A DNA stretch of 64,000 nucleotides from NCBI RefSeq assembly GCF_009741275.1, contig NZ_WOWS01000008.1, positions 1 through 64,000 on the forward strand, read 5' to 3'. Source of the stretch: Winogradskyella endarachnes. Lineage in GTDB: Bacteria; Bacteroidota; Bacteroidia; Flavobacteriales; Flavobacteriaceae. Numbering within the stretch: position 1 is the stretch's first letter; each line of letters begins with the position of its first letter. Made by a program: the position numbers and the translations under genes. Positions 41,017 through 55,075 of the stretch are shown piece by piece. Under the pieces are notes generated by a model, which made no database searches, was not told the DNA's origin, and was given only the letters and a program-made list of their open reading frames with translations.

Positions 41017-41778
41017 TTAAACTTTAGTTTTGAAATTTGAAGGACTAACACCAACATTTTTTTTAAAAAATCTCGAAAAACTACTCCCTGAATCAAAGCC
41101 TAGTTTAAAAGCTAGCTCTTTGGTTGTTATTTCACTTTTTACCAACTGACGTTTTGCTTCAGTTATTTGACGTTGCTGAATCACTTGCTTAGCTGTTAAA
41201 TTTAATTTTTCCTTTAATATTTGATTTAATCGCTTATTACTTACACCAATTTTATTAGCATAATAATCGGTTGAAGTTTCTATTAAAAAATGTGTTTCCA
41301 TAAGTTCTAAGAACTCAAAAACCCGCTTCTGGTTTAAATCTTGTTCTAAAAACCCATTGTTTTGATACCTTATTAAATGTAAAAGAAAAACCTTCAATAC
41401 GCTTTTAAACATTACATAAGAAGATATCTCATTTAGATACTCAGCCTTTAATAAATCAATTATTTGATTAATTTGATAGACTTCCTCAGAAGCCGATAAT
41501 ACAAATTGTGGATACTTATTAAAAAGCGCAAAAACATCTAAAGCATATTCAATATCATCCTCATCGATAAGGTCGCGTTCAAAATTTATTAAAACACCTG
41601 TATTATCATTAAACAGTTCAACTTTAAAGACTTCATTTAATGGTTTAAAATGCACCATTAAAGAACCATTTGGTCTTTTCTCTACATAAATACCCATGGA
41701 ATTATCTGAAAGCAACGCAGTGTTACTTTCAAATTTATCGCGCATCAGTATTCTATTTTTCCAAAGTTTATGGTTCAT
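41017..41778 (-). CDS. AraC-family transcription regulator
   Basis: A 253-residue regulator with an N-terminal sensing part (MVHFKPLNEVFKVELFNDN) and a C-terminal pair of helix-turn-helix units: NKIGVSNKRLNQILKEKLN and ELAFKLGFDSGSSFSRFFKKNVGVSPSNF, the AraC signature. It lies 45 bases downstream of the MFS transporter on the same strand, so it probably controls that transporter and is cotranscribed with it. The inducer is unknown. Confidence 0.9.
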   Translation of the reverse strand: MNHKLWKNRILMRDKFESNTALLSDNSMGIYVEKRPNGSLMVHFKPLNEVFKVELFNDNTGVLINFERDLIDEDDIEYALDVFALFNKYPQFVLSASEEVYQINQIIDLLKAEYLNEISSYVMFKSVLKVFLLHLIRYQNNGFLEQDLNQKRVFEFLELMETHFLIETSTDYYANKIGVSNKRLNQILKEKLNLTAKQVIQQRQITEAKRQLVKSEITTKELAFKLGFDSGSSFSRFFKKNVGVSPSNFKTKV

Positions 41779-41823
41779 TTACTTTTAAAGTATACTTCAA
41801 AAGTAATAAGAATTAATTCAAGT

Positions 41824-42966
41824 TTAAGCTTTCCTTATGTTTTGAAACATAATAAAAATCGTAATAGCAATTATAAAAGCCAATGCAGATGCAATAGAAT
41901 AAATAGCTAAATAGTTTTCTGAAATATATTCTATAAACGTAGATAAAAACTGACCTCCAAAAACACCCATAGAAAACAAGCCTAAATTTTTACCTTGATT
42001 ATGAGGAGAACTAATTTCTACCATCATATGATTTAGTAACGGTATTGTAAACCCAAAACCAATTCCTATAAAAATTGCAGTAAGCATTAAAAATGGTAAA
42101 CTTGTGGCTAATGCAAGTACTAAATAACCAAGCATAAAAAACAAGAATCCGGTTGATACGGTTTTATCTGCTCCAATAGTTTTTACCATTCTTGGCATTT
42201 GGCTCGCTGTAATAATAGCTATTAAAGAAATAAATGCCATAAGATAACCCGTTTGAGACTCGGTAAAACCAAATGAATTTGGCAAATAAAGCGGCAAAGT
42301 AACAAACCCAATAAAAAAAAGCATCATCGCTAATAACGATGCCGCAAATATTAATTTAACTTGTGCTTTACTTTTAGTATTACTGCCTAATGTTGCTTCT
42401 TCATTATAATTTTTAGTCTCTGGTTTTGGTAACGTCTTTAATACCAAAATTAAACAGAGCAGCGCAATTAAATAAATGTAAAAAGGATATTGCCAATGTA
42501 ATTCTCCTAATACACCTCCAATTGCTAAAAACACAACGCCTCCTAACTCAATAGACATACCTTGCCAAGCAATCATTTTCATTCTTTGTTCGCTAAGAAA
42601 AAACTCGGCAATATAAGCTGTAGAAGCAACCTGTAGTGCAACTGTTGCTGCACCTAATAAAATTCTATCTAAAATTAAGAGGTAGTCATTAGCAATAAAA
42701 GCACCAATTAATCCTAATACAGCATATGGTATAAGTCCGAAGCATAATAATTTTATAATGCCTAATTTATTAAGTAATCTTCCTATTAATGGTGCAAAAA
42801 TAACAACACCTAATGATGGTAGTGTAATTAACCAACTAGGAGAAAAGCTTAAATTTTTATGTATTGATATAGCTGATAATGAAGGTGCTATTACAGTACC
42901 AACCATTATAGTTAAACTACTAACTAATAGTAGTGTGAAGATGCCAAAGTTTGATATTTTTTTCAT
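41824..42966 (-). CDS. MFS transporter
   Basis: A 380-residue major facilitator with about twelve hydrophobic segments. Typical are the loop-2 motif APLIGRLLNKLG after the second helix, the DRILLGAATVAL helix and the central acidic/basic cytoplasmic loop (KPETKNYNEEATLGSNTKSK). Short drug:H+ antiporter-like members have this size. It leads the pair with the AraC-type regulator. Cargo unknown; efflux of a small toxic compound is a fair guess. Confidence 0.88.
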   Translation of the reverse strand: MKKISNFGIFTLLLVSSLTIMVGTVIAPSLSAISIHKNLSFSPSWLITLPSLGVVIFAPLIGRLLNKLGIIKLLCFGLIPYAVLGLIGAFIANDYLLILDRILLGAATVALQVASTAYIAEFFLSEQRMKMIAWQGMSIELGGVVFLAIGGVLGELHWQYPFYIYLIALLCLILVLKTLPKPETKNYNEEATLGSNTKSKAQVKLIFAASLLAMMLFFIGFVTLPLYLPNSFGFTESQTGYLMAFISLIAIITASQMPRMVKTIGADKTVSTGFLFFMLGYLVLALATSLPFLMLTAIFIGIGFGFTIPLLNHMMVEISSPHNQGKNLGLFSMGVFGGQFLSTFIEYISENYLAIYSIASALAFIIAITIFIMFQNIRKA

Positions 42967-44628: not shown

Positions 44629-44770
44629 GGCAATTAAGATATAATTGCGTGCAAATTTACGCTTTTTTTTGACATAATAGCCACATTAATGAAACGATAA
44701 CATAAGCGCCTAAGAATTTAATATTTAGCAAAAATTTGAAACAAAATTTCATTATTAACACATTATTTAA

Positions 44771-44818
44771 ATTTAGTCTAAATAAAGTTGTTTTTCTAAA
44801 CTATTAAAAATAGATTTG
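44771..44818 (+). promoter_or_regulatory. promoter and palindrome upstream of imelysin 1
   Basis: TAGATTTG (44811-44818) fits the -7 consensus and TTG at 44788-44790 fits -33, 20 bases apart. Just upstream is a perfect 6-1-6 palindrome ATTTAGTCTAAAT (44771-44783), placed where a repressor or activator could touch the polymerase. An iron regulator site is possible but unproven; such a palindrome can also occur by chance in AT-rich DNA. Confidence 0.55.
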
Positions 44819-44848: not shown

Positions 44849-46057
44849 ATGAAAAGAAATTCAATTTTATTATTAGCCTTATCTCTTAGTTTAGTTTTCG
44901 CTTGTTCAAGTGATGACGATAACAACAGCAGTAACAACGATGTTTCAAAATCAGCTGTTGTGTCTAACTATGCAGATATGGTATACCAATCTTATTTAGA
45001 TAGTTATAATGCAGCAGTTACAATGCAAACTGCTATTGAAGCCTTTGTTGCCAACCCTTCTGAAGCTACATTTACAGCTGCCAAAGATGCGTGGTTAGAC
45101 GCTAGAGAGCCTTACGGACAAACTGAGGTTTACAGAGAAGCCAATGGTCCTGTTGATACAGAATCAGACGCTTGGTCTTTAGGTACAGAAGGACAAATGA
45201 ATGCTTGGCCAATTGACGAAAGTTATATTGATTATGTAGCTACAGGAACAGAAGATTACGCTGGAGATTACGGAAGTATTATTGGTGATACAAGTATTAC
45301 CATAGACGAAGCTACAATTGCTGGATTAAATGAAGGTGTCGATGATAAATCTATTAGCACAGGATGGCACGCTATTGAGTTTTTACTTTGGGGACAAGAT
45401 AATACAGTACCTGCAGATTATTTAGCTGGTCAGCGTTCTTATACAGATTACACTACTGCTGATAATGCAGACAGAAGAGCATTATATTTAACAGTTTCTA
45501 CAGATTTATTAGTTGGTGACTTATTAGATCTAGTAAATACATGGGCAGAAGGTGGAACTTACAGAACTGTTTTTGAAAGTTTAGATACTGATACTGCTTT
45601 ACAACAAGCTATAAATGGTGCTTTCTTTATTGCTGGTGATGAGTTAAGTTCTGAGCGTATGATTGCGCCTGTTGACTCTACTGACGGTATTGATGCAAGT
45701 GGACAAGAAGATGAACATTCTTGTTTTTCTGATAATACAAACAGAGATGTTTATGCTAATGCACAAGGTGTAATTAATGTTATTTATGGGTCTTACGGAT
45801 CTATTGAAGGTGCTTCTTTTTACGATTTAGTAAACCAAGCAGACGCTGCACAAGCATTAGCTTTACAAACTGCTGCCACTGATGCCATGACAAAAATTAA
45901 TATTATTGGTGATAATGCACTTCCTTTTGATTATCTAATTACTCAAGAAACTTCTGATGACCTTTCTGGTCCTGTAATGCAAGCTGTTGAAGCTTTATTT
46001 ACATTAGCAGATGAAATTAGTGCATCAGCATCTGTAATTGGTATTAACCTTAACTAA
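44849..46057 (+). CDS. imelysin-family lipoprotein 1 (IrpA-like, GxHxxE intact)
   Basis: A 402-residue lipoprotein (lipobox LVFA-Cys19, then SSDDDNN). It shows the imelysin/IrpA features: AWLDAREPYGQTEVYREANGPVD at 81-103 and the conserved GxHxxE at Gly172, His174 and Glu177 (TGWHAIEFLLWGQD). Members of this family (peptidase M75, IrpA, EfeO C-domain) are linked to iron acquisition and the motif is thought to bind metal; peptidase activity is doubtful. First gene of the left arm of the locus, with its own promoter and a strong hairpin after it. Of three imelysins in this locus only this one keeps the full motif. Confidence 0.92.
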   Translation: MKRNSILLLALSLSLVFACSSDDDNNSSNNDVSKSAVVSNYADMVYQSYLDSYNAAVTMQTAIEAFVANPSEATFTAAKDAWLDAREPYGQTEVYREANGPVDTESDAWSLGTEGQMNAWPIDESYIDYVATGTEDYAGDYGSIIGDTSITIDEATIAGLNEGVDDKSISTGWHAIEFLLWGQDNTVPADYLAGQRSYTDYTTADNADRRALYLTVSTDLLVGDLLDLVNTWAEGGTYRTVFESLDTDTALQQAINGAFFIAGDELSSERMIAPVDSTDGIDASGQEDEHSCFSDNTNRDVYANAQGVINVIYGSYGSIEGASFYDLVNQADAAQALALQTAATDAMTKINIIGDNALPFDYLITQETSDDLSGPVMQAVEALFTLADEISASASVIGINLN

Positions 46058-46086
46058 TATATTTTAAATATTTATTTTAGTATACA

Positions 46087-46127
46087 TGGATAAATCCCGA
46101 GCTTTGCGCTTTGGGATTTATCCATTT
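46087..46127 (+). terminator. strong hairpin after imelysin 1
   Basis: Inverted repeat TGGATAAATCCC / GGGATTTATCCA (12 pairs) around a loop that can fold further (AGC/GCT), followed by TTTT. It lies between imelysin 1 and the di-haem oxidoreductase gene and may lower expression of the downstream genes or protect the upstream message. Confidence 0.85.
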
Positions 46128-46143
46128 TAAAACCTTTTAGATT

Positions 46144-47553
46144 TTGTTTAAGAGATACACACAATTGATATTTTTATTAGCTATTACAATCGGACTTACT
46201 TCTTGTAAATCTGAAGATGATAATTACTCATCTGTAGGAGACCTTTACGAAGAAGGTGAAGAGTATTTAACAGGAACATTAGGTGTTAATAGTACTAGTG
46301 CCAATGCATTTGGTTTTGAAATTGATGGCTTATCTTTTACCGAAATCGGACAATTCTCTACAGGTAATTCTTTATTTAATCAAAATTGGGTGTCCGCACC
46401 AGCTTCTACCACAGCAAGAGATGGACTAGGTCCTACTTTTAATGCGAGAGCTTGTGCTGGATGTCATTTTAAAGATGGACGAGGTGGTCCTTTGGTTAAT
46501 GGCCAAAATTCAGATGGTTTTTTAATGCGAATTAGTATGCCAGGACAAGATATTTATGGCAATAATAATCCTGTTCCTAATTACGGAACGCAACTACAAG
46601 ATAGAGCTAATAATGATATTCCGTATGAAGCTAAAGTTAATGTTACCTATGAATACATTAATGGAGAATACGCAGATGGCACTACTTACCAATTACAAAA
46701 ACCTATTTATTCTTTTTCAGATGAACAATTTGGGAGTTTAGCAGGTGTACAAATGTCTCCAAGAGTAGCACAACAAACTATTGGTTTAGGTCTTGTAAGC
46801 GCCTTACCAGATAGTGAAATATTGCAGTTTGCTGATGAATTTGATGCTGACAATGATGGTATTTCAGGTAAACCTAATTACGTATACGATGTAGAGACTG
46901 AAACTGATAAAATTGGAAAATATGGTTGGAAAGCCAATATGCCTACGTTAAAACAACAAATTGCAGGCGCTATGAGTGGCGATATGGGTTTAACAACGTC
47001 TCTTTTTCCGGAAACAATTTGTCCTTCACCTCAACAAGATTGTATCGATGCGCCTAATGGAGGAGAACCAGAAGTTACAGATGAACAATTAGAACGCGTT
47101 TTATTTTACCAATCTACATTAGCAGTACCTAATAGACGTAACGTTACAGAAGAATCCGTATTAAAAGGAAAAGTCCTTTTTAACGCGTTAAATTGTATTA
47201 CTTGCCATGCTATAAACCAAACTACAGGGACTTCTGCGGTAAGTTCACTTTTAGAAAATGTTACTATAAGACCATATTCAGACTTTTTATTACATGATAT
47301 GGGAGACGATTTAGCAGATAACAGGCCAGATTTTGATGCCAATGGAAATGAATGGCGCACACAACCACTTTGGGGAATTGGCCTCATTTCTACTGTTAAC
47401 GACCATACTTTTTTACTGCATGATGGCAGAGCACGTAATGTAGAAGAAGCTATACTTTGGCATGGTGGTGAAGCTGAAACAATTAAAAATGCATTTAAAA
47501 ATTTAACAGAAGCAGAACGTCAAAACGTTATTGACTTTGTGAACTCATTATAA
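46144..47553 (+). CDS. di-haem oxidoreductase (DUF1111 type) lipoprotein
   Basis: A 469-residue exported protein (signal ending IGLTS-Cys, a lipobox) with two c-type haem sites: CAGCH at Cys104-His108 in FNARACAGCHFKDGRGGP and CITCH at Cys351-His355. The family (di-haem oxidoreductase, formerly thiol oxidoreductase) is distantly related to di-haem peroxidases. The frame opens right after a TAG at 46138-46140 and the only usual start is TTG 46144. In many Proteobacteria the same family sits beside imelysins, so the link is recurrent. Likely an electron-transfer or metal-redox partner at the cell envelope. Imelysin 2 follows 5 bases after the stop. Confidence 0.9.
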   Translation: MFKRYTQLIFLLAITIGLTSCKSEDDNYSSVGDLYEEGEEYLTGTLGVNSTSANAFGFEIDGLSFTEIGQFSTGNSLFNQNWVSAPASTTARDGLGPTFNARACAGCHFKDGRGGPLVNGQNSDGFLMRISMPGQDIYGNNNPVPNYGTQLQDRANNDIPYEAKVNVTYEYINGEYADGTTYQLQKPIYSFSDEQFGSLAGVQMSPRVAQQTIGLGLVSALPDSEILQFADEFDADNDGISGKPNYVYDVETETDKIGKYGWKANMPTLKQQIAGAMSGDMGLTTSLFPETICPSPQQDCIDAPNGGEPEVTDEQLERVLFYQSTLAVPNRRNVTEESVLKGKVLFNALNCITCHAINQTTGTSAVSSLLENVTIRPYSDFLLHDMGDDLADNRPDFDANGNEWRTQPLWGIGLISTVNDHTFLLHDGRARNVEEAILWHGGEAETIKNAFKNLTEAERQNVIDFVNSL

Positions 47554-47558
47554 TTATC

Positions 47559-48635
47559 ATGAAAAAACTATCATTCATTTTAACCTTTTCATTACTCTTA
47601 TGTTTTAATTGTAATAGTAATGACGACTCTAACGATGGATTTAAAGTTAACACTCTATTAGAAGATTTAACTAACCAACAGATAATACCTTCAATAGACG
47701 CATTTGTAAATGCTAGTAATTCTTTTGAAATAGCTATACATAATTACATTGATAATCCTACAACTTCTAATTTAGAAATTGCAAGAAATGAATGGCAACT
47801 GACTGCTATTGCTTATGAAAAAACTTATGTACATCACATAGGCAGTGCTAGAGACCAATTTATACACACGTCAATCTACAATTGGCCAACAGTAGAAGGT
47901 GCCATAGAATTTTTTATATCAGATAATGATACTATAGACGAGGCGTTTATGGCAACAATTAGTGCTCAAGCAAAATCACTTGCAGCTATAGAATATCTAT
48001 TGTTTGCAGAAGATGAAGCAACAACAAACACTAGCTTTATAGATTCTGAAAAAAGACGTAATTACCTTAGTTTATCTGCTGCTTATTTAACATCTAGAGC
48101 TGAGAAACTTCAAGATATATGGTCTACTACTGGTGAAAATTATGCAACAACGTTTATTAACAGTGATGATTCTGGAATTCAAGGTTCCTTTAACCAATAC
48201 TATAACGGCATACATAATGCTTTAGATGTTACCAAAACAACTAAGGTTGGTAAACCTGCTGGTTTAGAAAATTCTCAAGTTATAAACCCAGAACTTACCC
48301 AAGCGTATTATAGTGAAACTTCAAAAGCGCTTGTACAAGCGAGTATTGAGAGTGTAGAAACAGCTTATTTTAACCTTGAAGGTATTGGTGTAGATGATTA
48401 TGTATTTTCTATTACAAATACAACCGATTTAAATGATGCTATACAAAACAAAATCAACGAAATCTATGTTGCGCTTAATGCTATTACAATTCCACTAAAC
48501 GAAGCTGTAGAGCAAAACCACGACTTAGTAGAAGACTTACATTCTAAACTTGAAGAATTGCGTATTCTTTTTGCTGTAGATGTAAGAAGTATTTTATCTA
48601 TTGTTATTACAACTACAGATACAGATGGCGATTAA
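47559..48635 (+). CDS. imelysin-family lipoprotein 2 (metal motif altered)
   Basis: A 358-residue lipoprotein (Cys18 after LLLCFN). The imelysin layout is visible: ARNEWQLTAIAYEKTYVHHIGSARDQ at about 75-100 and the motif region SLAAIEYLLF at 140-149, where GxHxxE has become SxAxxE: Glu145 is kept but the His is Ala142. The C-terminus SILSIVITTTDTDGD is shared with imelysin 3 (VIDYVDGDGD). It follows the di-haem gene by 5 bases and its last 4 bases overlap the convergent TonB receptor gene. Confidence 0.88.
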   Translation: MKKLSFILTFSLLLCFNCNSNDDSNDGFKVNTLLEDLTNQQIIPSIDAFVNASNSFEIAIHNYIDNPTTSNLEIARNEWQLTAIAYEKTYVHHIGSARDQFIHTSIYNWPTVEGAIEFFISDNDTIDEAFMATISAQAKSLAAIEYLLFAEDEATTNTSFIDSEKRRNYLSLSAAYLTSRAEKLQDIWSTTGENYATTFINSDDSGIQGSFNQYYNGIHNALDVTKTTKVGKPAGLENSQVINPELTQAYYSETSKALVQASIESVETAYFNLEGIGVDDYVFSITNTTDLNDAIQNKINEIYVALNAITIPLNEAVEQNHDLVEDLHSKLEELRILFAVDVRSILSIVITTTDTDGD

Positions 48636-51064
48636 ATTTTAATTTCTAAAGTTGCATACCAATTTCTCGGTGGCGATGGTAATATTCCAGGACCTGGATA
48701 ACCGGTTGCGCGCCGTGTAAAATAAGTGTTATTTAAAAGGTTATTGATACCTGTCTCTAGTTTAAATTGTTTGTATTGATACGATAGAGAAAAGTCTAAA
48801 ATATCATATTCTGGTATTAAACCAATAATACCAGAGCTTCCTAGTGGATCACTCCCTGAGTTTGGTGCATCAGAAAATTGGTCAGAAATATAAGTGTATT
48901 GCACACTGGTTTGAAAATTTTGATACCCGAACTTTAATCCAGTCTTTAAGTTAAGTTGCGGTACAAATTCTACCTGGTTCCCTTCTATGCCTGTTTCTTC
49001 AGACTTTGTATATTCTGAATGAATCAAAGATGTATTTATAAAATAGTTAAATCTATACTTACTGCTATCTATAAAGAGTTTATTTAAATTAAAATCAATT
49101 AAAGATTCTAAACCAAAAATAAACGCATCTCCTATATTATCTCTTACTTTTCTAACACTATTATCATTTTGTACTTCTAATGTAATACCAATTCTATCGT
49201 TGTAGAACAAACTAAAGGCGCTAATATCAAAAGAAACCATGCCTTTATAATTACCTCTAAAACCTAAATCTCCTGTTAATCCTGTTTCATCTTCTAAAGG
49301 TCTTACACTAAAATTAGGATTAACTAAATTAATATCAGAAAAGGTTACTGACCTGTAATTCTGTGAAGCATTAGCATAAAACTCTACATTTTCATTTGGC
49401 TTGTAACTTGTGCCTAAGCCAAATAACACAAAAGAACGTTCGTTTAGCTCATCGGAAAACTCTGTTTCATTAAGAATAACGTTGCCTGCTCCATCTAAGT
49501 TAATACGTTTAGAATAACCATCACTTTCTGTTTTTATATACTCTAATCTAAATCCTGGTGTAACTGACCATTTATCATTTAAATAAAAAATATTCTCACC
49601 AAAAACAGCCACATTAAGATTAGGGTTACTAAAGTTAGATTGGTTTTCATAATTTGGATAGTCTTCTAATTGTAATTGGAAATCTGGACCGATTCCATCA
49701 GAACCTGGCCCTTGTATTGAAGTATTATCTGCTTTATAGAATTTTGTTCCTATAAGCGCTGTGGCTTCTTTTCCGAAGAACTTATATTTATTTAATAGTC
49801 TTGCTTCAAAACCAAAATTGTTATACTCGCCTATTATTAAGTCGCGCTCTTCAAAATTATCAGGAATATCCTGTCTGTTGGTTCTAAAACCTAAAGCATT
49901 TCGTTCTGCATCTAATCCAAAAAAGTTGAATGTAAAGTTGGTATTTTCAGAAAACTCATGCGCTATTTTAAAACTATAAAGTAACCAATCTACCTGAAAC
50001 CAATTTCGGGTTCTATTACTTTGAAATGCGTCTTCATTAAACATAGCATCACTTAAACCACCTGCTTGCTGTGCTAAATAGCGCATGTATGTTAATTCGC
50101 CAGAAAGCTTTGTTTTATTAAACAATTGATAGCCCAAATGCATAAAGGCATTTTTAGATTCAAATTCAGAGTTTGGTCTAAATCCATCGCCTTTTTTATA
50201 ATTGAAATAGGTATAATAACTGAACTTTTCTTTAGTACCACTTAGACTTGTAAAGTTGGTATACAATCCGTTGCTTCCAAAGGTGTTTCTGGTAATAAAT
50301 TCAATAGTTTTATTAGGGTTTGGCTTTTTAAATATAAAATTAATAAGCCCTCCAAATTGTGTTCCATACTGTAAAGATGCTGCACCTCTTACCACTTGAA
50401 TTTGCTCTAACGCTTCAGCAGGTGGAGTGTAATAACTCTCTGGATATCCTAAAACATCTGCACTAATATCATAACCATTTTGTCTAGTGTTAAAGTTAGA
50501 CGTTCGGTTTGGGTCTAAACCTCTACCTCCTATATTTAATTGCAAGCCTGCATCATCATTCTGAAAGATATTTAATCCTGCCACTTGACTATATATTTGT
50601 CTAGCATTATTAGAAGCTAAATTCGCCATAGATTGGCCAACTAAAATCACTTCTGTTTTCTTGCCTGCGTAAATGGCTGTTTCTTCAACATCATTTAATC
50701 TACTCAATTCAAAAACTTTGGCTTTTCGAGCTGTAATTTCTACAGCTGTAAGTTGTTCTCCTAAAGCTACAAGGGATTGATTTACAGTTGTGTCTCCATT
50801 TACCGAAACAACAACTTCCTCTACTTGAAATTCATAAGAAAAGAACACTAATGTTATTTTTTGTTTGGTAGTTGTAAATTCAAAATAGCCTTTATTATCA
50901 GTCTTAGCTAACAAGCCAGAAGCTTTTTCAAATATTTCAACATTAGATAATGCTGTGTTAGATTCTTGTGATGTTACAAATCCCGAAACTTTACTTTGAG
51001 CTAAAGCCGCAGAAATTGTAATTAATACAAGTAATAATGTGTTATAAACCTTTAATTTCATCAT
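48632..51064 (-). CDS. FecA-like TonB-dependent outer-membrane receptor
   Basis: An 810-residue outer-membrane receptor for energy-driven uptake. Order: signal peptide (ending AALAQ), a carboxypeptidase-regulatory-like beta domain (KVSGFVTSQESNTALSNVEIF, about 23-100), plug domain with IYSQVAGLNIFQ and EALEQIQVVRGAASLQYGTQFGGLINF, and a 22-strand barrel ending in an aromatic-terminated strand (WYATLEIKI). The plug stretch YYTPPAEALEQIQVVRG closely recalls FecA, the ferric dicitrate receptor, so an iron chelate is the likely cargo. Start overlaps the end of the carboxylase-like gene by 23 bases, so the two are translated together. Confidence 0.92.
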   Translation of the reverse strand: MMKLKVYNTLLLVLITISAALAQSKVSGFVTSQESNTALSNVEIFEKASGLLAKTDNKGYFEFTTTKQKITLVFFSYEFQVEEVVVSVNGDTTVNQSLVALGEQLTAVEITARKAKVFELSRLNDVEETAIYAGKKTEVILVGQSMANLASNNARQIYSQVAGLNIFQNDDAGLQLNIGGRGLDPNRTSNFNTRQNGYDISADVLGYPESYYTPPAEALEQIQVVRGAASLQYGTQFGGLINFIFKKPNPNKTIEFITRNTFGSNGLYTNFTSLSGTKEKFSYYTYFNYKKGDGFRPNSEFESKNAFMHLGYQLFNKTKLSGELTYMRYLAQQAGGLSDAMFNEDAFQSNRTRNWFQVDWLLYSFKIAHEFSENTNFTFNFFGLDAERNALGFRTNRQDIPDNFEERDLIIGEYNNFGFEARLLNKYKFFGKEATALIGTKFYKADNTSIQGPGSDGIGPDFQLQLEDYPNYENQSNFSNPNLNVAVFGENIFYLNDKWSVTPGFRLEYIKTESDGYSKRINLDGAGNVILNETEFSDELNERSFVLFGLGTSYKPNENVEFYANASQNYRSVTFSDINLVNPNFSVRPLEDETGLTGDLGFRGNYKGMVSFDISAFSLFYNDRIGITLEVQNDNSVRKVRDNIGDAFIFGLESLIDFNLNKLFIDSSKYRFNYFINTSLIHSEYTKSEETGIEGNQVEFVPQLNLKTGLKFGYQNFQTSVQYTYISDQFSDAPNSGSDPLGSSGIIGLIPEYDILDFSLSYQYKQFKLETGINNLLNNTYFTRRATGYPGPGILPSPPRNWYATLEIKI

Positions 51065-52406
51065 TGAATGGTAGTATCCAGTTTTTATGTTTAAATGATT
51101 CTTTCTCTTGGTATAAATCTACATTTGGGTCAATATAAGGCTGACTCAGTCTTCCGTTTAATGCTACAAAACAATCTACAAATACCTGAACATTTTGATG
51201 ACCTTGACTTTTAAAATGATCGCCTAGATAGTGAGCGTATTCCAAAATAAAATCGGGTTGAAAGCTCATTTGTTTTTCTTGAAATGGCGTTAAAAAATCG
51301 AGATTATCTACATAGAAAAAATCTTTTGTTTCGCTATTTACAATTTTGAAATTAGCGTAGCCTGCTTTTTCCATAAGCATTACGCGCCATGAAAATCTAT
51401 AGCCTTCCTCTGTCCAAAACAACTCATTAGGATACAATACATATCGCCAAGGGAACACAAGTTGAACTACAAAAAACAAAGCTAATATTGGAATGATAAT
51501 TTTTCTTTTTGAATAGAAATAAGACTGTTCGCTCAACCTACGAGTTTTCAATTTTAAAGATTGTATTACACCTCTAAATACATTAAGAATTTTCTCGTGA
51601 ACATTAGCATCAAAGAATATTAATGTCGAGATTATCATGATATACGGAAACATGCCAATTGGAAACAATATCCTTGTAAACACATGAAAAATAACCACCA
51701 ATACAAAGGCTAGTGTTCTCGTTTTCTTATAGAGCAATAAAAATGGTATTGCCAAATCATATAACATACCAGACCAACTCATGGCAAAGTGAAACCACTC
51801 TTTGTGCATTAGGGTTTGACCAATAATAGGAATATCATACTTAGAGGGCAACCAAATTTTTAGAGGCATAGCTTTAAACAACCAATCGCTATTTAGTTTT
51901 GCTAAGCCTGCATAAAAATAAACTGTTCCGAGTAACAGTTTGATGATATCTATAGTCCATTTTGGGATTTGCTTATAGTGTGTCTTTTTTAGATATGCAT
52001 CTACAGAAAAATAAGCATTTGCAGGCAAAAAGCACATTAAAAAACTGAGTACACTTATAAAATAATAGTGATTGAGATAGGTGGTTTTATCCATTAACTC
52101 AATGTACGTAAAACTCAGAAAGAAGGTAATAATTGCTATTCTGTATTTAAAACCAATAAGAATAAAAAGAGCCGCTAGACCACATAAAGCAAATAGCAAA
52201 TATGTATAGCTACCAATAGGTTTTACCCATTGAAAACCGTAGTAAGAAAACTGAAATTTTGGTTGCAGGTACAATTTATCTATCCAACCCAAGCTCCAAA
52301 ATCTAATAATGCTTGCTAACATCATAACACCAAACCCAATCCTAAACACAGCCAAAGGCGCTGCATTTGTATTAGAGTCTAAATACAATTTTAATTTTGC
52401 AAGCAT
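51042..52406 (-). CDS. HTTM membrane protein resembling vitamin K-dependent gamma-carboxylase
   Basis: A 454-residue protein with about seven to eight membrane helices in the first 330 residues and a soluble C-terminal domain. The core matches human gamma-glutamyl carboxylase closely in pattern: DKTTYLNHYYFISVLSF (106-122), ANAYFSVDAYL (129-139), VYFYAGLAKLNSDW (162-175) and FPIGMFPY (about 254-261). Lys170 aligns with the catalytic base Lys218 of the human enzyme and His113 with His160, so the active site may be intact. Most bacterial members are just called HTTM proteins with no known function. It is cotranscribed with the TonB receptor (23-base overlap). A role in modifying envelope proteins or using menaquinone is inference. 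Confidence 0.85.
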   Translation of the reverse strand: MLAKLKLYLDSNTNAAPLAVFRIGFGVMMLASIIRFWSLGWIDKLYLQPKFQFSYYGFQWVKPIGSYTYLLFALCGLAALFILIGFKYRIAIITFFLSFTYIELMDKTTYLNHYYFISVLSFLMCFLPANAYFSVDAYLKKTHYKQIPKWTIDIIKLLLGTVYFYAGLAKLNSDWLFKAMPLKIWLPSKYDIPIIGQTLMHKEWFHFAMSWSGMLYDLAIPFLLLYKKTRTLAFVLVVIFHVFTRILFPIGMFPYIMIISTLIFFDANVHEKILNVFRGVIQSLKLKTRRLSEQSYFYSKRKIIIPILALFFVVQLVFPWRYVLYPNELFWTEEGYRFSWRVMLMEKAGYANFKIVNSETKDFFYVDNLDFLTPFQEKQMSFQPDFILEYAHYLGDHFKSQGHQNVQVFVDCFVALNGRLSQPYIDPNVDLYQEKESFKHKNWILPFNDEIKGL

Positions 52407-52422
52407 TTAATTTTAAATACAA

Positions 52423-52450
52423 AAAGAGGTTGCCATTAGACAACCTCTTT
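52423..52450 (-). terminator. hairpin between imelysin 3 and the carboxylase-like gene
   Basis: Inverted repeat AAAGAGGTTG / CAACCTCTTT (10 pairs) with an 8-base loop and T tail on the minus strand. It separates the two lipoprotein genes upstream from the carboxylase/receptor pair downstream; partial read-through would give graded expression. Confidence 0.85.
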
Positions 52451-52470
52451 GGTTAGTTTTTTATAATCAA

Positions 52471-53598
52471 TTAATCGCCATCACCATCTACATAATCAAT
52501 AACAAAATTTAAAGCTTGTTTCATATCAACTTTTAATTTTGGTACGGCAGCTTGAATAATATCATAAGCAGCTGTCATTTGAATACTGTTATCACTTAAC
52601 TGTTGCGTATAATCATCATTAAGACTGTTAATAGCATTTCGTCCTGCGGCAAACTGATTATTAATTTCAGTAACTAAATCTTCTCGGTCTAAAAATTCTA
52701 AATACACACTAAAAGATGAGCCGCTAATAGAACTTACACTATTATATGGTATGCCATTAAATAAATTCTCAATTCCTGATAATGCCTCTAAACTTAATTC
52801 TTTTGAAACATCCTTTTTATAAAATGCCTCAACGGTTTCTGGAAGTGTACCACCATTAGAGAAAATACCTGCAGGAATTCCTATTTTTTGAGCTCTAAAA
52901 TCTTTCTCATAAGAATAAACAATATCATTAGCTAACTTATTAAAAGACCCATTAACGCCACTATCTGTATTAGCAATAAATGTACTTCTAAAACTCGATT
53001 CCCAGTTATTAATTATCGCAGTATTTAAGGTTATCATTTGATTAACTACATCTGTTAAATAGGTAGTAAAACCTTCAAAATCGCTATTTGTAGTAAATTT
53101 ATCTAAAGGTAAAGTATCATTAGTTGCTACACCATGAATTAAAAAATCTAAAGCCGGAAACCCTTGAGCATCATGATAATTAGCAGTATTTAAATCATAA
53201 CTTCCAGTGTTTACTGCATTTTCAATATCAGCCACAGTTACAGGATAAATATTAAAGAAACTTACAAAGCCTCTTTCTCCTCCACCTAAATTATCTGCTT
53301 CGCCTAAATTATAAATTTGTACATGTTGCCAAACTTTATACGCTTCTAACCAAGCGTCGCTTAAAGCATCTAAATTAGCCGTAGACTTATCAGTTATAAA
53401 ACTGGTTGTGGCCGCATCTACAGAAGCTAGTTTAGATTGTAAATCTTGAAATGCTGGCATGATAATATTATCAGCCACATTAGTAAGCAATGCAGTTCTG
53501 TCAAAACCATCATCATTATTAGAGCTTCCATTATCGTCTGATGAACTACACGAAATAGCTATAACAACAATTACAAAAAGTATAATTTTTTTTAACAT
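52471..53598 (-). CDS. imelysin-family lipoprotein 3 (metal motif altered)
   Basis: A 375-residue lipoprotein (VVIAIS-Cys17, then SSSDDNG). Imelysin features include DAWLEAYKVWQHVQIYNLGEAD at about 81-102 and the motif region AQGFPALDFLIHG, where GxHxxE is replaced by GxPxxD (Gly146, Pro148, Asp151). The frame opens at 53637 within a terminator; ATG 53598 starts a proper lipoprotein signal. A TATCTTTG (minus strand, 53621-53628) lies 23 bases upstream as a likely -7 element, so this gene may have its own promoter besides read-through from the DUF4856-like gene. Confidence 0.88.
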   Translation of the reverse strand: MLKKIILFVIVVIAISCSSSDDNGSSNNDDGFDRTALLTNVADNIIMPAFQDLQSKLASVDAATTSFITDKSTANLDALSDAWLEAYKVWQHVQIYNLGEADNLGGGERGFVSFFNIYPVTVADIENAVNTGSYDLNTANYHDAQGFPALDFLIHGVATNDTLPLDKFTTNSDFEGFTTYLTDVVNQMITLNTAIINNWESSFRSTFIANTDSGVNGSFNKLANDIVYSYEKDFRAQKIGIPAGIFSNGGTLPETVEAFYKKDVSKELSLEALSGIENLFNGIPYNSVSSISGSSFSVYLEFLDREDLVTEINNQFAAGRNAINSLNDDYTQQLSDNSIQMTAAYDIIQAAVPKLKVDMKQALNFVIDYVDGDGD

Positions 53599-53620
53599 CT
53601 GTATTTTTCTTTTTCGGGTG

Positions 53621-53628
53621 CAAAGATA
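53621..53628 (-). promoter_or_regulatory. -7 element of imelysin 3
   Basis: Minus strand TATCTTTGCACCC matches TAnnTTTG and shares the TTTGCACCC context of the tRNA-Lys promoters. A TTG 16 bases upstream is a weak -33. Confidence 0.5.
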
Positions 53629-53631
53629 AAT

Positions 53632-53668
53632 AAGCATAAGCTTTCAACCTAATGAAAACTTATGCTTT
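53632..53668 (-). terminator. terminator of the DUF4856-like gene
   Basis: Imperfect inverted repeat AAGCATAAG...CTTATGCTT extended by TTTC/GAAA around a short loop, with an A/T-rich tail, 27 bases after the stop at 53695. Confidence 0.75.
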
Positions 53669-53694
53669 AAAATTTTAGTTTAATTATTTAACGT

Positions 53695-54885
53695 TTAGCT
53701 TGCTGCTTCAGTTACAGTAAAGCTAAAACGATCGGCAATATCTTCTGAAATACTGTCTAAAGTTTCTGTGGTTACGTCCCAAAATCCATTACCTTCTAAA
53801 AGTTCTGACATAAAAGCATCTACTTCAGTTTTTGACAAATATGGTACATCTGTTCCTGGTTGACGTGTAAATTGTAAACTATAAACAAAACCTAAACCTT
53901 CTGATAAATCGTGGAATACAGATGCATAATCTGATCCTAAACCAGCCTTACCTGCTTGCAAGTAATATACGGCTCTAACTCCTATAACTATTGATATTTT
54001 TTCTCTGATAATTGCCGCTTGCTCATCTCTTACCTCATAGTTTTTAGCAACAATTGCTGCTCGCCCTAATTTAAAGGCATCATAGATGTCTTGTGCTATG
54101 CCTGCAAAATCATCATCGCCTTCTACACGAGATAAATATTTATTTAGAAAACTATCTACATTTAATTGTGGTGCTAATGCATCATCCACTCCATATAAAT
54201 AACCAAAGGCTTCGTCCCATTTATGCTCCATAGTAGTATAGTTATTAGTACCATCTAAGACATCATTATCATTGTCTTCTACATTATTACCGGCATCTAA
54301 AACTGCTGTACTTAAGTAATTATTAAGGATTTGGTCTGCCATTAAACCACCAATTAGACCTTTAGTAATTGCTTGATTAAACTCTACTCCTTTTGCACTA
54401 ACATAACGCGTTGAGCCACCGCCTGCTTCTTGTATTTTTCCTGCTGTACCAGCAACAGCATCTGTGTTCCAATTAGGAAACACTTCACTCACTTGACTAG
54501 CAATCCATGCATCAAATTGTGCCTTTATAGCCGTAGCATCTGTAGTATTAGCAGAAAAATAATCTGTTGAGGCTGCTGTTTTACTTCTAATATCTTTTCC
54601 TGAGGTGTTTAATTCACTTGTAGAAAAATAATCTCCTGTATTTGTAAACATACCATCTAACTCAGCTTCAGATTTACTTGCATCACTGAGTGCTGACACC
54701 AACTCCTCACCCATTTCTATACGTGTTGTTTGTCCTCCGTAATTTACAGTGGTTATTCCATTTCTTTCAAATTGATAGGTTGCTGGCGCTTCTACTTGCG
54801 GTTCTGTTGTTCCATTGTCATCATCGCTAGAACATGAGGTTAAAATAGCTCCGACTACTAATAAACTTAATACAATTTTTTTCAT
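53695..54885 (-). CDS. DUF4856-like lipoprotein
   Basis: A 396-residue lipoprotein (GAILTS-Cys18, then SSDDDNG). The mature part opens YQFERNGITTVNYGGQTTRIEMGEEL, and further on has KGVEFNQAITKGLIGGLMADQI, a KWDEAFGYLYG stretch and AGKAGLGSDYASVFHDLSEGLGFVYSLQF. I recognise this as the DUF4856 type, which repeatedly accompanies imelysins in Bacteroidota; its role is unknown. It is the first gene of the right arm, with a promoter at 54943-54973. Mostly helical; the helical repeats are reminiscent of imelysin itself. Confidence 0.82.
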   Translation of the reverse strand: MKKIVLSLLVVGAILTSCSSDDDNGTTEPQVEAPATYQFERNGITTVNYGGQTTRIEMGEELVSALSDASKSEAELDGMFTNTGDYFSTSELNTSGKDIRSKTAASTDYFSANTTDATAIKAQFDAWIASQVSEVFPNWNTDAVAGTAGKIQEAGGGSTRYVSAKGVEFNQAITKGLIGGLMADQILNNYLSTAVLDAGNNVEDNDNDVLDGTNNYTTMEHKWDEAFGYLYGVDDALAPQLNVDSFLNKYLSRVEGDDDFAGIAQDIYDAFKLGRAAIVAKNYEVRDEQAAIIREKISIVIGVRAVYYLQAGKAGLGSDYASVFHDLSEGLGFVYSLQFTRQPGTDVPYLSKTEVDAFMSELLEGNGFWDVTTETLDSISEDIADRFSFTVTEAAS

Positions 54886-54942
54886 TTTTGGTTGATTAAT
54901 TATTCTTATTTAGACTTGATATGAATTACTTTGTCTGAAATT

Positions 54943-54973: not shown

Positions 54974-55075
54974 ATTTTATTTAGATTAATTTTAAATAGA
55001 ATATATGGTTAAGAATTAAAACGAAATGAAAAAACTACTACAGGCACGTTCACCTACTAGATAAGAAATAAATTA

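Follow-up and report, generated by a model that had tools for sequence, protein, structure and literature searches.

The subject of this report is a seven-gene locus of Winogradskyella endarachnes that contains three imelysins, a TonB-dependent receptor and a membrane protein with a VKGC lumenal domain (hereafter the VKGC), which is related to GGCX, the human vitamin K carboxylase that acts on clotting proteins. The locus lies in the window analyzed here, a stretch of 64 kb comprising positions 1 to 64,000 of contig NZ_WOWS01000008.1 (assembly GCF_009741275.1). The coordinates and the order of the seven open reading frames (ORFs) in the initial annotation were reproduced from the ORF list of the window, and all seven proteins scored over the Pfam cut-off, as imelysin (three proteins), DHOR, TonB plug, barrel and CarboxypepD_reg_2 domains, HTTM with VKGC_lumenal_dom, and DUF4856 (Table 1). 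The genes form two convergent units. The left unit consists of imelysin 1, a di-haem oxidoreductase (DHOR) and imelysin 2, and the right unit consists of the DUF4856 gene, imelysin 3, the VKGC and the TonB receptor. As had been described, the units meet at positions 48632-48635, where the stop codons of the imelysin 2 and receptor genes overlap. Within the right unit, the VKGC and receptor genes share 23 bp by their ORF coordinates, so that translational coupling is possible. The 3.6-Mb assembly holds three PF09375 matches, all in the window, and these are the three imelysins. The closest other matches of the VKGC (90% identity) and of the DUF4856 protein (86%) bear the name Winogradskyella.

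Table 1. Genes and predicted Fur-type boxes of the locus (positions in the 64-kb window).
Feature	Position	Strand	Remarks
Imelysin 1	44849..46057	+	PF09375, 4e-60; lipoprotein of the ICMP/LruB type
DHOR, lipoprotein	46144..47553	+	TTG start; PF06537, 9e-99
Imelysin 2	47559..48635	+	PF09375, 3.4e-32
TonB-dependent receptor	48632..51064	-	PF00593, PF07715, PF13715 (CarboxypepD_reg-like N-terminal domain); siderophore/FecA-like
Membrane protein with HTTM and VKGC lumenal domain (VKGC)	51042..52406	-	PF05090, 1.1e-79 (268 bits); PF22777, 1.3e-61 (207 bits)
Imelysin 3, lipoprotein, IPPA-like	52471..53637	-	Peptidase_M75/imelysin Pfam match; motif GFPALD
DUF4856 lipoprotein	53695..54885	-	PF16148, 5e-147; first gene of the right-hand operon
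Predicted Fur-type box ATTTAAATTTAGTCTAAAT	44765..44783		65 bp before the imelysin 1 ATG; at most 3 mismatches; half-site score 13/14
Predicted Fur-type box ATTTAAAATTAATCTAAAT, on the - strand	54979..54997		93 bp before the DUF4856 ATG; 2 mismatches; 13/14
Possible second, weaker box	54908..54926		12/14; nearer the DUF4856 start

Two samples were used to assess how well the right unit is conserved: one even draw of 118 Bacteroidota genomes, and 80 named loci, which ranked highest by VKGC similarity among at least 570 and are hence close relatives. Among the 118 genomes, the lumenal domain (VKGC_lumenal) was found in 28, DUF4856 in 20, imelysin in 30 and DHOR in 26. In two genomes (G045 and G101), the search marked the VKGC match with one in-frame TGA, and the open ORFs were taken unchanged. 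The 28 VKGC genomes hold 32 VKGC places, and the surroundings of the 31 places beyond the window were searched with the window proteins. Imelysin, VKGC and receptor genes were adjacent and on the same strand in 26 of the 28 genomes, a neighbourhood far beyond chance. With phylogeny left uncorrected, Fisher p was 4e-22 for the joint occurrence of VKGC and imelysin and 3e-14 for that of VKGC and DUF4856 (19 shared genomes, against 28 and 20). A neighbourhood search with the VKGC and DUF4856 proteins had been suggested in the initial annotation, and it returned conserved co-occurrence: 19 of the 20 DUF4856 genomes carry DUF4856 in one unit with the VKGC, the imelysin standing between them. The single solo DUF4856 gene among the 20 genomes (L022:8915-10120) has no VKGC, imelysin or receptor nearby. 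A DUF4856-type gene lay upstream in 24 of the 26 operon loci (19 by the Pfam model and 5 as positional equivalents). In L026-L030, Kapabacteria-like by their matches, a lipoprotein occupies the DUF4856 position with a sub-threshold DUF4856 score or none, and before the units of L025 and L031 no DUF4856-like gene was seen.

All four core genes occurred together in 72 of the 80 named loci, among them that of Bizionia argentinensis JUB59 (L055), an organism for which a gene deletion has been published (PMC9478572). The remaining eight were made up of two that lack DUF4856 only (L044 and L045), two on short contigs (L059 and L093), three rearranged Tenacibaculum loci (L109, L112 and L120) and one with DUF4856 and VKGC but neither of the other two (L121). 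Upstream of the operon in L044 and L045 (L044:4757-6994 and L045:6916-7506), we observed a flavodoxin/flavoreductase-like membrane protein and a non-heme ferritin-like gene, both scoring under the NCBIfam cut-offs. In the Tenacibaculum loci (T. finnmarkense and T. dicentrarchi), the order is a distant imelysin, a membrane protein, a receptor, the VKGC and then ATP-binding cassette (ABC) genes. Pfam identified a fatty acid hydroxylase family and an ABC solute-binding protein at L109 and a permease at L112, the others showing the same layout by eye; the binding protein looked ferric by eye, and NCBIfam gave it no match over the cut-off.

Six VKGC copies in the draw stand outside such operons (L023, L024 and L032-L035). 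One of them (L023:8342-9652) is a second VKGC in the W. endarachnes genome itself; it is of another type and directly follows a riboflavin kinase/FAD synthetase gene, and a reprolysin-like protease carrying a type IX sorting tail lies opposite. The ribF neighbour is repeated at L034, and L024 and L035 appear similar by eye.

The left unit was found inside the fetched stretch in 4 of the 80 named loci. In the 118-genome draw, an imelysin-linked DHOR occurred in 8 genomes; 5 of the 8 also have a VKGC, and in 2 (G000 and G084) the two units lie side by side. Within the genus, DHOR was present in 5 of 60 genomes, each time at most about 8.4 kb from a VKGC gene (the VKGC type was checked in one of the five). 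The two halves are thus separable but keep meeting, and since they occur apart, the locus is not the single seven-gene system that had been proposed for it.

The DHOR belongs to a family that we take to be the one formerly named DUF1111, and it has two CxxCH motifs, CAGCH at 104 and CITCH at 351. Imelysin 1 carries the GxHxxE motif (GWHAIE, residue 172), matches the ICMP structure PDB 7xrx at E 2e-55, and scores best among the NCBIfam models on LruB (165.6 bits, under the cut-off of 850). Imelysins 2 and 3 have no GxHxxE. In imelysin 2 the motif His is lost, the C-terminus reads ...TDTDGD, and the lipobox is less clear than those of the other lipoproteins. The pattern taken for IPPA-type imelysins was GxxxxE, with the motif His lost and the last Glu kept.

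The make-up of the left unit is shared by PA4370-PA4372 of Pseudomonas aeruginosa, with an ICMP imelysin, a DUF1111 di-haem protein and a second imelysin; according to the available passages of PMC3143127, this imelysin operon (VC1264-VC1266 is the other set named) is iron-regulated and Fur-regulated. Unlike PA4370-PA4372, the left unit described here converges on another operon, which encodes a third imelysin, DUF4856, the VKGC and a TonB receptor, and the words 'carboxylase' and 'TonB' do not occur in the main text of PMC3143127. The Leptospira set LruB/LIMLP_14170-14180 has two imelysins flanking a cytochrome-type peroxidase; in the passages at hand of PMC7567364 and PMC8638851, its expression rises with H2O2 and, for the imelysins, under low iron as well. 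The likeness to LruB is limited by the sub-threshold score of imelysin 1 on that model, and 'carboxylase' is absent from the main text of both papers.

The window was searched for Fur boxes. The pattern used was the Fur consensus of Riemerella anatipestifer, as given in the accessible part of PMC5609570. Only two sites within 3 mismatches were found in the 64 kb, one in the upstream region of each unit. Counted on both strands, there were 3 consensus matches, where 0.45 would be expected and a single one of 100 shuffles yielded as many. By half-site scoring, the two promoter boxes were joint best in the window at 13/14, with five other sites at 12. The weaker box before DUF4856 may be a chance match because five window sites score 12; several relatives likewise show two boxes. 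The genome-wide count at no more than 2 mismatches was uninformative, since the reversed control pattern gave 4 sites and the consensus 2, one of which is the DUF4856-promoter box. In other loci of the 118-genome draw, the box before the unit reached p<0.05 against same-size windows of the same locus in 22 of 25 cases, the failing loci being L006 (0.056), L007 and L031. All 72 named loci in which DUF4856 takes its usual position had a box score of at least 12/14; these loci are related and thus not independent, and in the AT-rich loci L005 and L006 a score of 12 was reached by 3-6% of background windows. Both units are therefore predicted to be Fur-regulated.

A matching gene set has been studied at the level of expression. 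In the available passages of PMC5609570, four successive Riemerella locus tags, RAYM_09779/84/89/94, are annotated as a TonB receptor, a VKGC, an imelysin lipoprotein and a hypothetical protein. Their likeness to the right unit is one of gene names and order, RAYM_09794 being a possible DUF4856 counterpart. The tabulated ratios are unitless and were taken as log2 from the cut-off in the text; on this assumption, the four genes rose by 2.11/2.64/3.07/2.41 on iron restriction and by 1.90/1.39/1.93/1.36 in a fur deletion with iron (PMC5609570). PMC5609570 mentions the carboxylase a single time in its main text, in the expression table. The initial annotation knew of similar neighbourhoods only as unexplained co-occurrence, and this understates what is known, since the regulation of the matching four-gene set is in print. 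Its expectation of an envelope iron system, by contrast, has gained from the boxes and from the iron- and Fur-dependent repression of the Riemerella set. Because of the conserved gene order, the boxes before both units and this published repression, the locus is very probably an iron system.

The carboxylase-like protein had been singled out as the odd element of such a locus, and so it appears. Residues 7-447 of the VKGC align to residues 53-505 of human GGCX (PDB 9wfn and others) with E 2.9e-44. In the accessible passages of a 2025 cryo-EM study (PMC12589487), K218 of GGCX is the base, N159, H160 and Y395 form the Glu pocket, F286, F294, F299, V210, W223 and M401 form the quinone pocket, and K217 couples substrate binding. 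K170, N112, H113 and Y336 of the VKGC correspond to K218, N159, H160 and Y395 of GGCX. The equivalents of K218, N159 and H160 are kept in all 26 operon proteins, in which the quinone-pocket residues F286, F294, F299, V210 and W223 are likewise identical. K218, N159, H160, W223, F286, F294 and F299 are also found in 80 of 80 named-locus sequences and 240 of 240 listed protein matches; the sets of 26, 80 and 240 overlap, and the match lists are the top 120 of thousands. At the Y395 position the operon proteins have Tyr (19) or Phe (7), and a His stands there in 5 of the 6 non-operon copies. By sequence, the lumenal domain is what distinguishes the operon VKGCs from HTTM-only proteins. The VKGC is somewhat more likely than not to be chemically active, and it is plausible that it makes gamma-carboxyglutamate (Gla) on a partner.

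We therefore consider the following explanation. The two Fur-repressed convergent units would build an outer-envelope iron acquisition system, with Fur repression lifted by iron shortage. The TonB receptor would then import a ferric complex, as is general for such receptors, while the imelysins and DUF4856, as outer-membrane lipoproteins of which some probably face outward, would capture iron or hand it over. The di-haem unit, where present, may change the redox state of the iron. The membrane VKGC, with its active site to the periplasm, would use menaquinol, O2 and CO2 on glutamates of an exported protein, the first candidate clients being imelysin 3, DUF4856 or the receptor, and the resulting Gla would add malonate-type iron ligands. 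As a whole, this account of Fur-repressed units with a VKGC that carboxylates an exported partner stands close to an even chance. Its generalization, in which Bacteroidota would have devoted menaquinol-driven gamma-glutamyl carboxylation to iron, with Fur co-inducing the GGCX relative, its client lipoproteins and the receptor and with a surface iron site arising through carboxylation, is a tentative one that we hold to be rather doubtful.

Several findings weigh against this explanation, and most of them concern the enzyme. K217 is replaced by Ala and M401 by Val, each in all 26 operon proteins. Nothing aligns past residue 505 of the 758 of GGCX, so that its propeptide-binding and Arch parts are unmatched in the 454-residue VKGC, which also has no C99/C450 pair. 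HTTM-only proteins served as a control (10 regions, with 8 ORFs matching the profile and L158 and L159 not): they keep the K218 Lys in 8 of 8 and, among the 7 that extend over the Asn-His position, the pair in 4. It is kept in L155-L157 and L160, from one genus, is absent from L161-L163, and falls outside the covered part of L164. The retained Lys, Asn and His thus fit Glu chemistry but do not prove carboxylation, and the control slightly lowers the odds both of VKGC activity and of a co-encoded substrate. The classical vitamin K cycle has a VKOR partner, whereas VKOR (PF07884) was not found in the W. endarachnes genome; it occurred in 4 of the 28 VKGC genomes and in 21 of the 90 others (p 0.43), which is no association. 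A quinone epoxide, if made, would therefore be recycled otherwise or not at all. The VKGC of L032 has an operon-type sequence but stands alone. With regard to Fur, iron restriction still induces the Riemerella set when fur is deleted, so that Fur is not the sole input, and among the Fur boxes given in the accessible part of the paper there is none for RAYM_09779-09794 (PMC5609570).

The four controls with the Lys and the Asn-His pair (L155, L156, L157 and L160) lie in genomes G050, G008, G058 and G003, all of which have VKOR; this may be an HTTM/VKOR pairing unlike the iron operon.

Among the partners, the conserved glutamates of imelysin 3, DUF4856 and the receptor were tabulated, and no substrate was identified in the three, which likewise speaks against the explanation. 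In imelysin 3, Glu reaches at least 60% at 139, 244 and 270 only, is nearly invariant only at E244 and E270, and forms no cluster; it was rejected as a Gla-domain-like substrate. A Gla domain in DUF4856 was also rejected: in the AlphaFold model of this protein (predicted local distance difference test, pLDDT, 92.8), E168, E220, E225 and E329 lie in or next to helices and would resemble a metal site more than a Gla domain. The receptor has many conserved glutamates, but these are spread out, and none was singled out.

The C-terminal DGD was tried as a VKGC target as well. It ends imelysins 2 and 3 and 100 of 102 imelysin-3 ORFs, and in the phylum draw DGD tails were seen only in VKGC genomes (a weak imelysin match, G105:C3, being left out). 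This candidate was dropped because the gammaproteobacterial IPPA of Psychrobacter (3pf0) likewise ends in DGD, so that imelysins of that type have probably had this ending for long; the 2011 structure paper does not mention 'DGD' in its main text.

Further properties of the partners were examined. The DUF4856 model found no match at E <= 0.001 in a Foldseek search of the PDB, its profile comparison with imelysin aligned 30 columns around the signal peptide only, and the name DUF4856 was not found in the open-access literature searched. Two or more acidic residues stood at +2..+6 behind the lipid Cys in 82 of 101 DUF4856 and 58 of 103 imelysin-3 rows, a pattern that resembles published lipoprotein export signals (PMC5080379). 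The receptor, described in the initial annotation as FecA-like, is so only loosely: its score on the NCBIfam FecA model of ferric dicitrate receptors is 100.7 bits, far under the equivalog cut-off of 1100, and it scores best on the siderophore-receptor model TIGR01783 (138.6 bits, cut-off 223.5). The locus also differs from EfeUOB, since neither an EfeU permease nor an EfeO cupredoxin domain is among the seven proteins (EfeU was not searched for elsewhere in the genome). A co-encoded protein as the substrate falls somewhat short of an even chance.

Partner carboxylation has two main rivals, namely action on a small molecule and a purely redox function. In the former, which we regard as unlikely, the VKGC would act not on a protein but on a small iron-carrying molecule or peptide, such as a siderophore-like compound or a citrate- or glutamate-type ligand taken up via the receptor. 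The loss of the propeptide-binding domain and of K217, the siderophore-receptor model as the top, though sub-threshold, match of the receptor, and the lack of a conserved Glu cluster in imelysin 3 are all consistent with such a substrate. However, the VKGC retains both the Asn-His pair and the lumenal domain, of which the Glu site of GGCX is made, and the core unit contains no ligand biosynthesis gene, the flanks not having been searched for one.

A pure redox role is quite unlikely in our judgement. The VKGC would then carboxylate nothing; as an oxygen or redox enzyme that depends on quinol, it would shield the envelope or the quinone pool during iron starvation. Both the quinone pocket, kept save for M401, and the Leptospira imelysin/cytochrome/imelysin set, with its response to H2O2 and, for the imelysins, to low iron as reported in the passages at hand, point in this direction, as does the Leptospira VKGC homologue, which is reported to have lost carboxylation; against it, N159 and H160 of the Glu pocket are as strictly kept as the quinone pocket, and peroxide data for the operon were not found in the published passages available.

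A further possibility, improbable in our view, is an idle VKGC that catalyses nothing and acts as scaffold or partner to the receptor and the lipoproteins. The missing substrate and VKOR, the lost K217 and the 23-bp overlap with the receptor gene, by which translation may be coupled, could be read in this way, but an idle protein would not be expected to keep its active site invariant over the 26, 80 and 240 overlapping sequences. That the locus serves another metal, such as zinc or manganese, or a general starvation response appears more improbable still. The genome has three Fur-family genes, so that a Zur- or PerR-like reader of the boxes is possible, and the link between box and Fur is experimental only in the Riemerella paper and, in its accessible part, on other promoters. 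Nevertheless, the matching Riemerella set is induced by iron restriction in that same part, imelysins are iron-regulated in other groups, and ferritin-like and flavoreductase-like ORFs, with scores under the cut-off, lie beside two copies of the operon. Finally, a chance neighbourhood without functional link is contradicted by the adjacency in 26 of 28 genomes, which belong to several families, and by the box before the unit, and it can practically be dismissed despite the solo VKGC (L032) and the solo DUF4856 gene (L022).

Beyond the two units, an AraC-type regulator and a major facilitator superfamily transporter form a gene pair at 41017-42966 of the window, past an IMP dehydrogenase-like gene (named by eye), and are possibly another transport locus.

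The locus is built from known families, and imelysin operons under iron control have been described before. To our knowledge, a conserved carboxylase in such operons is new, and none of the bacterial proteins related to the full vitamin K carboxylase has an established job. Among the matches listed in the open-access literature, the right unit is not described as such, and the gene set appears only in PMC5609570. The VKGC has a fixed seat in an operon under iron-type control across much of the phylum, beside named candidate clients, which makes the function of a bacterial VKGC a directly testable question and provides a first handle on DUF4856. Some bacteria may use vitamin K carboxylase chemistry to help gather iron; if this is true, vitamin K-dependent protein modification would have a bacterial counterpart, which is perhaps its forerunner.

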